DNA from: Arthrobacter crystallopoietes
Lineage (GTDB): Bacteria; Actinomycetota; Actinomycetes; Actinomycetales; Micrococcaceae
DNA: 64,000 bases
Reading direction: 5' to 3'
Assembly (NCBI RefSeq): GCF_017603825.1
Contig: NZ_CP072014.1
Location: forward strand, 310,001 to 374,000
Positions 46,668-50,522 of the stretch are shown piece after piece. A program made the position numbers and the translations under genes. The notes beneath the pieces are model-generated. The model saw only the letters and a list, made by a program, of their open reading frames with translations, was not told the origin of the DNA and searched no databases. Within the stretch, counting starts at the first letter, position 1; every line of letters begins with the position of its first letter.

Positions 46668-46745
46668 GTGGTTCGCGGCCCAAGTGCCGGCGAGAGATTT
46701 CGCCTTGGAGCGGCACAGCGATGCGGGTTGGTGGAAGATGGAGCC

Positions 46746-47765
46746 ATGGATGCTGTCGACGCACTCAATGAGATTGCTTTCTGGCTCGAACGTGAACTTG
46801 CGCCCAGTTTCAAGGTTCAGGCATTCCGCAAGGCAGCCAGCGCCATTCGCAGCCTGGAGCCCGAGGAGCTCGCGGCCAGAGCCAGGGACGGCCGGCTCAA
46901 GAACATGAAAGGGATCGGCAGCAGAACCTTCGAGGTCATCAGCCAGGCGGTCGACGGCGGGGTGCCCGACTACCTCGCGAAGCTGCGGGAACGTTCGGCC
47001 AAGCCGCTGGCGGAAGGCGGGGCGGAATTGAACTCGGCCCTCCGCGGCGATCTGCACAGCCACAGCAACTGGTCCGACGGCGGATCCCCCATCGAAACCA
47101 TGGCGGATACAGCAAGGATGCTGGGACGGGACTATCTGGCGTTGACCGACCACTCCCCCAATTTGACGATAGCCAATGGTCTGAGCGTCAAGCGGCTTAC
47201 CGAGCAGCTGGATGTAGTCGCCGAGATCAACCAGGGGGCCGACGGCTTCCGCCTGCTGGCCGGGATCGAGGTCGACATCCTCGAAAACGGCACCCTGGAC
47301 CAAACGCCCGCAATGCTGCAGCAGCTGGACGTTGTGGTGGCCAGCGTGCATTCAAAACTCCGCTCCGATAAGCGCACCATGACTAAGAGAATGCTCGGCG
47401 GCATCACCGATCCCCACACCAATGTGCTGGGCCACTGCACGGGCCGCCTCGTCAAGGGGTCGAGGGGCACCCGCCCGGAATCGGAGTTCGACGCCGACCG
47501 GGTGTTCGCCGCCTGTGCAGAGAACGATGTCGCCGTCGAGATCAATTCGCGTCCCGAGCGGCAGGACCCGCCGGACAACCTGATCCAGCTTGCCCTGGAC
47601 GCCGGCTGCCTGTTCAGCATCGACAGCGACGCCCACGCGCCCGGCCAGCTCGACTTCCTCCAGTACGGGGCGGAGCGCGCCGCGCGGAACGGTGTCCCGG
47701 CTGAACGGATCATTAATACATGGCCTTTGGACCGGCTGCTGGAGTGGACGGCCGCGGGGAAATAA
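46746..47765 (+). CDS. PHP-domain metal-dependent phosphoesterase with HhH segment
   Basis: A 339-residue protein. Residues 1-75 resemble the helix-hairpin-helix region of PolX-type proteins (LAPSFKVQAFRKAASAIRSL, MKGIGSRTFEVISQAV). The PHP domain has the metal ligands GDLHSHSNWSDGG, ALTDHSPNL, LAGIEVDI, VVASVHSKL, VLGHCTGRL and SIDSDAHAPGQLDF. Such proteins are histidinol-phosphatase-like or nuclease-associated hydrolases; the DNA polymerase domain of PolX is absent. ATG 46746 is supported by a GGAG 2 bases upstream and by the start of homology. Confidence 0.85.
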   Translation: MDAVDALNEIAFWLERELAPSFKVQAFRKAASAIRSLEPEELAARARDGRLKNMKGIGSRTFEVISQAVDGGVPDYLAKLRERSAKPLAEGGAELNSALRGDLHSHSNWSDGGSPIETMADTARMLGRDYLALTDHSPNLTIANGLSVKRLTEQLDVVAEINQGADGFRLLAGIEVDILENGTLDQTPAMLQQLDVVVASVHSKLRSDKRTMTKRMLGGITDPHTNVLGHCTGRLVKGSRGTRPESEFDADRVFAACAENDVAVEINSRPERQDPPDNLIQLALDAGCLFSIDSDAHAPGQLDFLQYGAERAARNGVPAERIINTWPLDRLLEWTAAGK

Positions 47766-47804: not shown

Positions 47805-47836
47805 TTGACCTTGGAGCGGGCTCCAAGGTTTAAGCT
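47805..47836 (+). promoter_or_regulatory. MerR-type promoter with long spacer and palindromic operator
   Basis: -35 TTGACC (47805-47810) and -10 TAAGCT (47831-47836) are separated by 20 bases, the elongated spacing that MerR proteins correct by DNA distortion. The spacer carries a perfect 9-bp inverted repeat ACCTTGGAG / CTCCAAGGT (47808-47829). The expected start site, about 7 bases after the -10, coincides with the ATG at 47843, so the merR mRNA is probably leaderless. Confidence 0.85.
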
Positions 47837-47842
47837 GAAGCC

Positions 47843-48319
47843 ATGACTGGCTTACAGGCGCCTCAGGCGCTGAAAGTTGGCGAGTTGGCGAAGGCTGTCG
47901 GTGTCTCCACCGATGCGCTCCGCTACTACGAGCGCGCGGGCTTGCTCCCACCTCCGGACCGGTCCCCCGCGGGCTACCGGCTGTATCCGCCCAGCACCAC
48001 AGACCGTGTGCACTTTATCCAGGGTTGCCAGCGGCTGGGCCTCCGGTTGGCCGAGATAGCCGATCTGCTGGATGTCCGGGATACGGGCCGGTGCCCGTGT
48101 GAACCGGCCGAGTCTTTGCTCCGCCGGCGGATCGGCGAGCTGGACAGGGAGCTGGACCGCCTCTCCCGGTTGCGCTCCGATCTGCAGGCCATGGCCGATC
48201 AACTGCATGGCACGGACTGTCCGGATCCGGATCCCGGCACGTGGTGTCCGCCCGACCCGAAAAGCATGAAGGAGGTGACCGATGATGGACATCAAAAGGG
48301 CCTGCCCCTGCTGCGATGA
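47843..48319 (+). CDS. MerR-family heavy-metal-responsive regulator
   Basis: A 158-residue MerR regulator. DNA-binding domain LKVGELAKAVGVSTDALRYYERAGLLPPPDRS, then the dimerisation helix and a metal-binding end. Cysteines at 84 and 86 (RCPCEP) and at 126 and 135 (DCPDPDPGTWC) sit where ZntR/CadR/PbrR-type sensors bind Zn, Cd or Pb. It should control its own promoter through the operator at 47808-47829. Its last ~13 codons overlap an independent Cys-rich small gene in another frame, so both are made from one transcript. Residues past ~140 may be shaped by that overlap. Confidence 0.9.
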   Translation: MTGLQAPQALKVGELAKAVGVSTDALRYYERAGLLPPPDRSPAGYRLYPPSTTDRVHFIQGCQRLGLRLAEIADLLDVRDTGRCPCEPAESLLRRRIGELDRELDRLSRLRSDLQAMADQLHGTDCPDPDPGTWCPPDPKSMKEVTDDGHQKGLPLLR

Positions 48320-48362
48320 CCCTGCCTGTGACGGCAGTTGCTGCGGCGGCGGTTGTTGCTGA
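48282..48362 (+). CDS. 26-residue cysteine-rich micropeptide (metallothionein-like)
   Basis: A 26-codon gene inside and beyond the merR 3' end. It is preceded by AAGGAGGTGA (48269-48278), one of the best ribosome sites in the window, 3-4 bases from ATG 48282; a second ATG follows directly. The peptide has eight cysteines (positions 8, 10, 11, 16, 20, 21, 25, 26), including CPCC, SCC and a terminal GCC, plus three Asp. This density is typical of metal-thiolate clusters. Cotranscription with a metal-sensing MerR suggests metal binding or delivery. It is too short for most gene finders, and no family was recognised. A terminator hairpin follows 22 bases later. Confidence 0.65.
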   Translation: MMDIKRACPCCDDPACDGSCCGGGCC

Positions 48363-48384
48363 ACACGATCCAGAACAACGACGG

Positions 48385-48424
48385 CGGCACTCCAGGTGGG
48401 ATTTTCCTCCCACCGGAAGTGCCG
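48385..48424. terminator. Bidirectional hairpin terminator
   Basis: A 17-bp stem with two mismatches (48385-48401 against 48408-48424) and a 6-base loop TTTTCC. Outer arm CGGCACT/AGTGCCG and inner arm GGTGGGA/TCCCACC are perfect. It ends the merR-micropeptide transcript and the convergent phosphodiesterase gene, whose stop is 22 bases away. Confidence 0.8.
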
Positions 48425-48446
48425 ACGTCGTACGTGGTCAGGTTCT

Positions 48447-49736
48447 TCAGTTGGCGAAGACGTCCTGCAGCTGGCCCTGCGGGGTCCACAGCGCCACGGA
48501 GTCGCCGCCGTTGTTCAGCACGGAGGCGGTGCCATCGTTGTAGAAGCTCTCCGCGGTGTTGGTTCCGGGGCCGGTGTAGACGCGCAGTTCGCCGCCCGGT
48601 GCCAGGACGTATCCGTCCCCGATGGCGAGGATGTTGTTGGCCGCGTCGCGGATGATGCTGCCGCTGACCTCAATGCTGCGGCCGGTGGTGTTGCGCAGAA
48701 GCACATGTTCGCCGGTTTCCGCCTGGACATCGCTGCCGGCCGGGTTGTTGACCGAGTCCACGATTTCGACGCCGTTCGCCGAGGGGAAGGGCTTCCCGCC
48801 GGCGAGGTAGCGGGCGGTCTGGATCGGGAAGTCGCCGGTGACGGCGTCGACGCCAAGGTCGATGGAGTGCTGGACTGCCTCGGGCGAATTGGCGGTGTAG
48901 ACGCCGATGACCAGACCGGCCGCCTTCACGTCCGCAACGTTCTGCGCGGTCAGCGTGCGGTAGTTGGTGCCCACGGAGTCGGCGTACTCGGCCCACTGGG
49001 CCAGGGTTTCCGATCCGGGAACGGTGCTGGAGAGCTGCTGCAGTTCGATCTCCGGGGCGATGGAGGCGAAGGTCCGGTTGGAGGCCTCGTCGAAGCTGAG
49101 CACCTGGATCTTGTCCGCGGCTACCAGTTTCTGCCACTTCTTATCGGTGCGCAGTTCCTCGGCGACCAGCTGCTCGATGCCCGGGGAGTTCTTCGGGGAC
49201 TTGATCTCGATGTAGACGCCGGTCTCGATGGTGGCGACCCTGGCGGCATCGTCCAGGTGCGGGATGCGTTCGCCGGCGAATTCCTCGCCGAAGTACGCGC
49301 CGGCGTCGAGCTGCTGCAGCTCCGCCCAGGTGAAGGACGTGATCGGATCGTGGGCGCGGTCCGGGAAGACGCCCTCGACATTAGTGGTGCGGGCAGGGGT
49401 GTCATCGTGGAAGAGGAACGGTACTCCGTCGGCGCTGAGCTGGACGTCGATCTCGAAGAAGTCCGCACCGGAGGCCCGGCCGTCCTTGAACGCGGCAACG
49501 GTGTTCTCCGGTGCCGTGCCGGCGGCACCGCGGTGCCCGATGAGCAGCGGAGCTTCGGCCTGGCTGCTGGCCGCGGTGTCCTGCACGGCCACATCGGCGG
49601 TGTTGGCTGTGCCGGGCTGTGGCGCGGTCTGCGGCGCTGCCTGCTGGGCGACGGCGGCAGGCGCCGCGAGCAGGGACAGCCCGACGGCGGTGGCCGCTGC
49701 GGATCCGGTCAGAAGCGTGGTGATGCGTGATGCCAT
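48447..49736 (-). CDS. Secreted glycerophosphodiester phosphodiesterase with lamin-tail domain
   Basis: A 429-residue secreted protein. The signal peptide has a long hydrophobic core and an AxA cleavage site (TAVGLSLLAAPAAVAQQ). The GDPD barrel contains LLIGHRGAAGTAPENT, FFEIDVQLSADGVP and FLFHDDTPARTT, with GVYIEIKSP as the later metal Glu. The C-terminal ~110 residues look like a lamin-tail/LTD fold (NGVEIVDSVNNPAGSD, VLLRNTTGRSIEVSG, GGDSVALWTPQGQ). It hydrolyses glycerophosphodiesters outside the cell. ATG 49736 is chosen because the signal peptide starts there; the frame stays open to 49895. Confidence 0.9.
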   Translation of the reverse strand: MASRITTLLTGSAAATAVGLSLLAAPAAVAQQAAPQTAPQPGTANTADVAVQDTAASSQAEAPLLIGHRGAAGTAPENTVAAFKDGRASGADFFEIDVQLSADGVPFLFHDDTPARTTNVEGVFPDRAHDPITSFTWAELQQLDAGAYFGEEFAGERIPHLDDAARVATIETGVYIEIKSPKNSPGIEQLVAEELRTDKKWQKLVAADKIQVLSFDEASNRTFASIAPEIELQQLSSTVPGSETLAQWAEYADSVGTNYRTLTAQNVADVKAAGLVIGVYTANSPEAVQHSIDLGVDAVTGDFPIQTARYLAGGKPFPSANGVEIVDSVNNPAGSDVQAETGEHVLLRNTTGRSIEVSGSIIRDAANNILAIGDGYVLAPGGELRVYTGPGTNTAESFYNDGTASVLNNGGDSVALWTPQGQLQDVFAN

Positions 49737-49886
49737 ACGAATTGAACTTCCTTCATCCTGGTGGTTGATATCCCCCTTGGTCGATGCTGGCGTGTGGTTG
49801 CATCCGGCACGCCAACGCAGGGTGAACCCGGAATGAAGGGTGGGAAGGGGTGGACGCGGGGTGGCGGCCGCCACTAGATTACGAGC

Positions 49887-50522
49887 ATGGCTCAAGACGG
49901 GGGAACCAACGATCCTGCCGCTGCCGGTGGCCGGACGGATGCCGGCGCTCCGGCGTCAGCCGGCGCATCGCTGCCGGGACGGCCGCCGAGACCGCAGTTG
50001 TCCGACCGGACCCCACCGCCGATAGGGCAGTCCCTGCCACCTACCGGCATGGTGAAGGCGGCGAGATCGCTGTGGCTGCTTAGCTTCCTGCTCGGCGCGG
50101 TTGCCATCGCCTTTGCCTACCTGTCCCGCGACGACCGGCTGGAACGGCTCCGCGAGATCGTGACCGAGGTTGACCCAGGCCAGGACGAAGCGACGGTCGA
50201 TGCGGTGGCTGCCCTGGTGCACTGGGGCAGCCTGGGTGCCTTGGCACTCATCATTGTCGTCGAGGCACTACTGCTGCGCGGGCTGATGCGCCGGCGCGGC
50301 GGGATCCGGTGGGTGCAGCTGGTGGTGCTGCTGCTCCATGGCGGAGCGGCGGTCATGGCGGACGCCTTCCTCGTGGCTCCGGGCGAGGGCGAAATGTACC
50401 TCCGCTGGGGGCTGGTAGCGCAGGTGGTGCTAGCCTGTGCAGCGTTGCTGATCAGCTTGCTGCCCGGCGCCGACGCCTGGTTCCGCGCCAAGCACGAGAC
50501 GCACGGTAGGCCGCGGGGCTGA
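49887..50522 (+). CDS. Hypothetical membrane protein with proline-rich N-terminus
   Basis: A 211-residue protein. Residues 1-55 are a disordered Pro/Ala/Gly tail, then about four membrane helices (SLWLLSFLLGAVAIAFAYL, LGALALIIVVEALLLRGLM, VQLVVLLLHGGAAVMADAFL, VVLACAALLISLLPG). No family motif was recognised. Its last 93 bases overlap the convergent IniC-like gene on the other strand. That is unusual enough that the end of one of the two may be recent, but both frames look coding. Confidence 0.6.
   Translation: MAQDGGTNDPAAAGGRTDAGAPASAGASLPGRPPRPQLSDRTPPPIGQSLPPTGMVKAARSLWLLSFLLGAVAIAFAYLSRDDRLERLREIVTEVDPGQDEATVDAVAALVHWGSLGALALIIVVEALLLRGLMRRRGGIRWVQLVVLLLHGGAAVMADAFLVAPGEGEMYLRWGLVAQVVLACAALLISLLPGADAWFRAKHETHGRPRG

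Follow-up and report, generated by a model that had tools for sequence, protein, structure and literature searches.

A cysteine-rich micropeptide gene adjoining a merR-type regulator in Actinomycetota: a predicted MerR-switched minimal metallothionein

What does a metal-sensing MerR regulator switch on when, in the place usual for an efflux pump, its own 3' end runs into an open reading frame (ORF) in which eight of 26 codons specify cysteine? This question is raised by a 64,000-nucleotide stretch of Arthrobacter crystallopoietes DNA, the whole of which is hereafter called the window. A first-pass annotation, made from the letters alone, had proposed that the small ORF encodes a minimal metallothionein or metal chaperone. 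The comparative analysis presented here leaves a very small, putatively metal-binding peptide under MerR control as the best reading of the sequence data, with a role as metal trap ranked above that of a chaperone.

All elements of the unit lie on the forward strand. The MerR-type promoter/operator (47805..47836) consists of TTGACC (47805-47810), a spacer of 20 nt (47811-47830) and TAAGCT (47831-47836), and most of its dyad, CCTTGGAG-CGGG-CTCCAAGG (47809-47828), is found inside the spacer. Six nucleotides past the -10 hexamer is the ATG of the MerR-family regulator (47843..48319, 158 aa), which is predicted to be leaderless. The Shine-Dalgarno sequence of the micropeptide, AAGGAGGTGA (48269..48278), is followed by CCG and then by the ATG at 48282, opening the cysteine-rich gene MMDIKRACPCCDDPACDGSCCGGGCC (48282..48362) with its 26 codons and 8 Cys arranged as CPCC, C, SCC and GCC. 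The ribosome site, ending 3 nt before this ATG, the frame and the eight cysteines were thus all re-read from the sequence as first described, as was the overlap with the end of merR, which in the window amounts to 38 nt (48282-48319) in a different frame. The length of 26 codons holds for the ORF itself (48282-48362), which opens with two adjacent ATG codons; since two congeners (L003 and L004) read TTG-ATG at that place, the conserved start is probably the second ATG, at 48285, giving 25 aa.

Downstream of the peptide gene and between convergent genes, a strong hairpin (about 48378..48431, forward strand) represents a possible transcription end. A segment of 91 nt (48360-48450) folds at -47 kcal/mol, against a mean of -26.6 (sd 3.5) for 200 shuffles (z -5.8), which upholds the fold reported earlier. 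Its reading as a terminator fares less well, as hairpin 48378-48431 has no clear U-tract, does not appear in terminator predictions and is not common to L002 and L004, in which the DNA past the peptide stop differs. No Rfam family reached its gathering score between 46500 and 49500 of the window. The convergent neighbour (48447-49895, reverse strand) encodes a glycerophosphodiester phosphodiesterase domain followed by a lamin-tail domain (LTD), and the upstream neighbour (46740-47765, forward strand) a PHP domain with a helix-hairpin-helix that scores above the cut-off of PRK07945 and, as part of PolX, below that of PolX itself.

Cysteine-rich ORFs of this kind are tightly associated with one MerR subfamily. 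A search of 148 genomes revealed that the seven closest MerR relatives (L002-L008) all have one at the end of merR, and the same ORF scan listed none for L009-L030. Among the matches listed, the nearest named relatives of the window MerR are two from Arthrobacter. A collection scan gave at least 567 MerR relatives, the best 80 of which were taken on, and in the added genome searches a part of each genome's candidates was scored, 10 to 21 of them in the larger ones. The 177 loci gathered altogether include 146 with a distinct MerR-like domain, and it is these that entered the counts. Based on their MerR score, these were divided into core (180 or more), extended (146-180) and other (below 134) loci. 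A peptide was counted when it had 10-45 aa, at least 4 Cys making up at least 20% of its residues and a ribosome-site match of at least 5 nt, with a start between -30 and +150 nt of the MerR domain end. Such peptides occur in 52/56 core and 10/14 extended loci and in 0/76 of the other MerRs (core versus other, Fisher 2e-32), figures that are descriptive because the criterion was fixed after many positives were known and the score classes were set after a gap in the scores had been noticed. Control windows of 180 nt taken elsewhere in the same loci on both strands, the sole evidence on such peptides away from merR, yielded one in 7739. The micropeptide is a genuine gene and a member of a family.

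Eight of the 70 core and extended loci lie outside these counts, for different reasons. The cysteine ORF of L062 has no ATG, GTG or TTG at ribosome-site distance, that of L165 shares its frame with merR and has a weak ribosome site, and that of L078 is a longer one; in L032, L033, L071, L162 and L163 no cysteine-rich ORF is present. In a MerR tree that took in 25 of the 76 other MerRs, the subfamily forms a clade of 70 members (support 99/96), 65 of which have the peptide when L062, L165 and L078 are included.

The pattern of substitutions also bears on the peptide. The first-pass annotation had asked whether the cysteine codons decay in relatives that keep the merR frame, and the opposite was found, with peptide codons changing synonymously at sites where merR residues change. 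Comparison of the window with three congeners (together L001-L004) shows 7 variable sites in the 43 nt of the peptide gene that lie beyond the overlap, all of them synonymous and at codon position 3. Of the 6 variable sites inside the overlap, three occupy the third position of a peptide codon and are silent there (AAA/AAG Lys, GCC/GCG Ala, TGC/TGT Cys) while altering residues of merR; the other three, in peptide codons 1, 3 and 4, alter the peptide. Conserved cysteine codon pairs, which are not independent within groups, switch between TGT and TGC in 11/48 cases in the Arthrobacter group, in 4/60, 3/60 and 19/271 in three further groups and in 38/165 in group E. Changed Cys pairs are absent from three groups and number 59/330 and 20/185 in the two most diverse ones. 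In four of the five peptide groups only the cysteines look constrained, because nonsynonymous differences outnumber synonymous ones there, a pattern of fixed cysteines and drifting remainder that the pairwise alignments favour by giving Cys matches high scores. Judged from these alignments, selection looks to operate at the level of the peptide, mainly on its cysteines.

The 62 family peptides range from 11 to 30 aa, with 5-10 Cys and a Cys fraction of 0.21-0.55 (median 0.33), ranges that are partly preset by the selection on length (10-45 aa) and Cys fraction (0.20). Asp, Gly and Pro are plentiful, and all 62 sequences together contain 2 Tyr, 2 Phe, no Trp and 9 His. The ribosome-site match reaches at least 8 nt in 57 of them (5 nt was required). 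Thirty-five overlap merR in another frame, 26 start past the merR stop and one is in the merR frame; the overlap stressed by the first-pass annotation is thus a feature of the window and does not define the family, because 26/62 start after the merR stop. The micropeptide of L006 and L165 continues the merR frame without an intervening stop, so that it can be translated both as a tail of merR and from an internal start, an arrangement that is a possible origin of the micropeptide gene. The shortest members are from Lentzea (L068 and L069): MEDDCCIGCDCC, of 12 aa, and a peptide of 11 aa with 6 Cys. Three loci with low-scoring core or extended MerRs (L074, L173 and L174) have two unlike cysteine-rich micropeptides in tandem past merR, one type of which forms a separate class resembling MxDGGCPCCGCPCGDCGGSGS.

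The statement that no described family was recognised held in the libraries searched: the window peptide and 10 others gave no Pfam or NCBIfam family at E<=1, such short queries scoring low. A PDB sequence search returned one weak match only (myelin transcription factor 1, E 0.016). A tblastn search with the 25-aa peptide against 72,556 plasmid records gave no match and was insensitive, because L031, a plasmid among those records, holds a relative adjoining merR; the gene table of this plasmid, known to be incomplete, has no CDS over the peptide. An in silico survey of actinobacterial metallothioneins is said to have been made by Schmidt et al. in 2010 (cited in PMC4531530) and could contain related candidates. 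Among the titles and abstract beginnings listed by a literature search, with subscription literature mostly outside, no description of a cysteine-rich micropeptide adjoining merR was found.

The regulator and its promoter look like those of a metal-responsive switch. The window MerR matches the Pfam MerR (63.3 bits, cut-off 28.2) and MerR-DNA-bind (57.7, cut-off 25.4) domains. Its best NCBIfam model is TIGR02051 (MerR, 94.1 bits, cut-off 150.85), ahead of CadR-PbrR (90.3, cut-off 151.45) and SoxR (47.2), with no MerR, CadR, ZntR or CueR equivalog cut-off reached. Candidate metal ligands are C84, C86 and C126, invariant in a chosen set of 34 aligned members, together with C135. In alignments with CadR and with the MerR-like protein 4ua1, C86 falls on a Cys, and the Cys equivalent to C86 has a role in divalent-metal sensing. 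Upstream of merR, a strict promoter pattern was found in 51/70 core and extended loci and a looser one in 66/70, and TAxxxT follows a spacer of exactly 20 nt in 61/66 promoter-bearing loci. All 62 peptide loci have the MerR-type dyad promoter ahead of merR; the four loci of 70 without a promoter in that position are the ATPase-linked L032, L033 and L071 (see below), plus L078. In its own 4.38-Mb genome, the operator pattern occurs at one place within 3 mismatches, the limit beyond which operators would escape the scan. The first in-frame ATG/GTG of merR stands 6 nt past the -10 in 45 loci, 7 nt in 14 and 8 nt in 3; the remaining 4 have an irregular start or none. Because the start codon is mostly 6-8 nt past the -10, merR is predicted to be leaderless.

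Taken together, these data lead us to propose, with a probability of roughly 70%, that the locus is a two-gene metal-response unit in which a MerR switch controls a minimal metallothionein that would capture a metal or metalloid of thiophilic character. A MerR dimer would sit on the dyad within the over-long 20-nt promoter spacer and, by analogy with known MerR proteins, binding of a thiophilic metal or metalloid would turn the promoter on. Transcription would begin at or beside the merR start codon, hence a merR transcript that is predicted to be leaderless. The micropeptide, which is the last ORF and has a near-perfect ribosome site, would be made in larger yield than MerR; from its layout, the unit seems built for little regulator and much peptide. 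With about one third of its residues Cys and hardly any His or aromatics, the peptide may wrap the metal in the manner of a minimal metallothionein and trap it, upon which the free metal would drop and MerR would turn off.

Several of these features are shared with known systems. The Neurospora metallothionein has 25 aa. As with the window peptide, the metallothioneins SmtA and MymT are very small and cysteine-rich, with Cys-Cys and Cys-x-Cys motifs, almost no aromatics and a linkage to a metal sensor; the family described here differs in its size (11-30 aa), in the lack of Pfam and NCBIfam matches and in forming one unit with a MerR activator. The MymT of M. tuberculosis is given as 4.9 kDa (PMC7558416), and in Anabaena a metallothionein is described as being under a repressor of the SmtB/ArsR family (PMC8790569), unlike the MerR found here. 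In P. aeruginosa, Zrd is reported as a zinc-ribbon protein under CadR with similarities to metallothioneins noted by its authors (PMC12301328); it resembles the window unit in that a MerR-family sensor controls a small metal-binding protein, as is predicted in our case, and differs in being a zinc ribbon. Regulators of the CadR, ZntR and MerR types that accompany efflux genes have the same fold and the same dyad promoter with a 20-nt spacer, and C86 is shared with CadR. In CadR, the loop matching the C86-C126 interval has one Cys; the window MerR differs in having no Cys between these positions and in the added C84. Those promoters go with a pump, whereas the one described here would drive merR and the micropeptide.

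The idea that the peptide stands where an efflux pump is usual gained support from the named loci (L034 and L035 removed as duplicates, L078 omitted), in which a P-type ATPase homologue is present in the fetched DNA of 13/36 other MerRs versus 1/41 subfamily members, and the single ATPase-bearing subfamily locus has no peptide. Two MerR relatives encoded on plasmids of Streptomyces (L032) and Mycobacteroides (L033) lack the peptide and have a divergent cation P-type ATPase, at which a dyad promoter on the reverse strand points. In NCBIfam, the L033 ATPase scores above the cut-offs of the heavy-metal and Cd families and just above that of the Cu family. Since the same kind of promoter faces an efflux ATPase of P1B type in these two relatives, the peptide is most simply regarded as the effector of the regulator. 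In L071 merR and an ATPase homologue are more than 2 kb apart, and the three MerRs nest together with a support of 85/81, which is too low for a star in this tree. Read most simply, related switches have either the peptide or the pump as their output. This alternation does not easily accommodate L162 and L163, which keep the merR promoter and have no peptide. In L162 (1854-2207) and L192 (6596-6952), a Thioredoxin_3-domain ORF preceded by a AAAGGAGG site occupies the place of the micropeptide after a dyad-promoter merR, and is possibly another alternative effector.

Arsenic-resistance genes recur around the unit in some lineages. Within the fetched flanks of 1.5 to 5 kb (less at contig ends), an ACR3 or ArsC homologue was found in 13/56 core, 2/14 extended and 3/76 other loci, and longer stretches added two core loci with ars genes, L007 and L008 (as L180 and L181). 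Named loci show a similar trend (13/41 subfamily versus 3/36 other MerRs, Fisher p 0.013, lineages not independent), with 8 of these 13 subfamily loci from Geodermatophilaceae and a linkage largely within two families. Gene order varies: merR-peptide-arsR-acr3-arsC in L037; arsR-arsO-merR-peptide divergent from acr3-arsC in L180, L181 and L054/L185; and arsR-acr3-arsC divergent from merR in L048 and L064. NCBIfam cut-offs were passed by ACR3 (L054) and ArsO (L008), and the ArsC-like and ArsK-like proteins and the L055 flavoprotein scored below theirs. A search for the ars query genes found none in the window, nor within about 6 kb in four congeners. For some lineages the ars neighbours suggest As(III) or a ligand of broad thiol reactivity, and the ATPase branch suggests a cation, so that the choice between a soft divalent ion (Cd/Pb/Hg/Zn type) and As(III)/Sb(III) is about even.

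A bolder version of our proposal is tentative, and we would sooner bet against it than for it: the peptides would form a phylum-wide class, the smallest genetically encoded metallothioneins (11-30 aa), serving a dedicated leaderless MerR as its only effector and drawn more than once into arsenic-resistance clusters as an As(III) or soft-metal trap that replaces or backs up efflux. If so, we know of no earlier metallothionein unit switched by a MerR and of no shorter metallothionein. The metallothionein reading would in any case bring a new type of effector to MerR biology, a micropeptide in the place of the pump, and a conserved gene family lying outside all family models searched. Such natural minimal peptides could be used to ask how few residues suffice for a working metallothionein, their 5-10 Cys in 11-30 residues offer a natural series of variants for metal-binding chemistry, and switch and peptide together would make a compact cassette for sensing and sequestration.

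Among other explanations, the peptide could be a metallochaperone or feedback damper that passes metal to an exporter, for example ACR3, or removes it from MerR and so resets the switch. Its very short length, its sharing of a transcription unit with the regulator and the presence of ACR3, ArsC or ArsO in some of the same loci are compatible with this role. However, the fetched DNA of 43/56 core loci (with flanks often of only 1.5 kb) contains no homologue of ACR3 or ArsC, and the residues other than Cys drift, unlike a surface that docks on one partner; we regard this role as unlikely, yet it is the strongest of the competing explanations. That the peptide is a stress-induced thiol redox buffer or sulfur store, with metal binding incidental, is quite improbable. 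The high Cys content would suit such a function, as would the Pyr_redox_2 gene next to the peptide in L005/L198 and the Thioredoxin_3-domain ORF of L162/L192, but the oxidoreductase neighbour is from one congener and the regulator scores best with metal-sensing models (MerR 94.1, CadR-PbrR 90.3, SoxR 47.2 bits). In L005/L198 that gene, for a pyridine nucleotide-disulphide oxidoreductase, is downstream of the peptide on the same strand.

The neighbourhood of the unit also bears on two further functions. A RiPP or metallophore precursor, modified and exported, would likewise be small and rich in Cys, Gly, Pro and Asp, but the recurrent neighbours identified by eye for some searched clusters are ars-type, housekeeping or noise and include no peptide-modifying enzyme, which makes this function slightly less probable again than a redox buffer. 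A cysteine-responsive attenuator was reportedly described in mycobacteria by Canestrari et al. in 2020. Poly-Cys attenuator sORFs of mycobacteria are predicted to regulate the downstream gene (PMC9094748) and, as here, they are short, actinobacterial and rich in Cys codons. By contrast, the next called gene past the peptide is mostly convergent (38/60) and lies on the same strand within 60 nt in 5/60 loci, as called by a crude gene caller that, at least in L005 and L037, overlooked nearby genes on the strand of the peptide. Clusters of recurring neighbours, of which c2 is partly noise, revealed no single downstream gene common across the family, and control of a downstream gene by a regulatory ORF is accordingly very improbable. 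A chance ORF or read-out of the merR tail, as the overlap in the window and the merR frame of L006 and L165 might suggest, is contradicted by the controls (0/76 other MerRs, 1/7739 windows), the 26/62 peptides wholly past the merR stop and the synonymous codon pattern, and is the least probable of all.

The metallothionein unit predicted here has a patchy distribution. Core and extended MerR matches at E 1e-45 or better, counted together and with its own genome included, were obtained in 5/10 genomes of the genus, 9/295 of the family, 6/394 of the class and 9/198 of the phylum. Micrococcaceae are found at two separate places in the MerR tree, and patchy occurrence and tree together suggest a horizontal spread of the unit. 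The L031 member sits on a plasmid typed as conjugative. Of 14 viral-contig stretches that matched a pattern, 2 encode distant MerRs (29% and 34% identity). In two cases an intact peptide gene follows an unusual merR: that of one congener (L005:1480-2003 / L198) is cut short by a TGA at the position of the Trp codon in the GTW of its relatives, and in the Geodermatophilus obscurus DSM 43162 record (L076:4009-4481) merR looks frameshifted, with both promoter and micropeptide intact.
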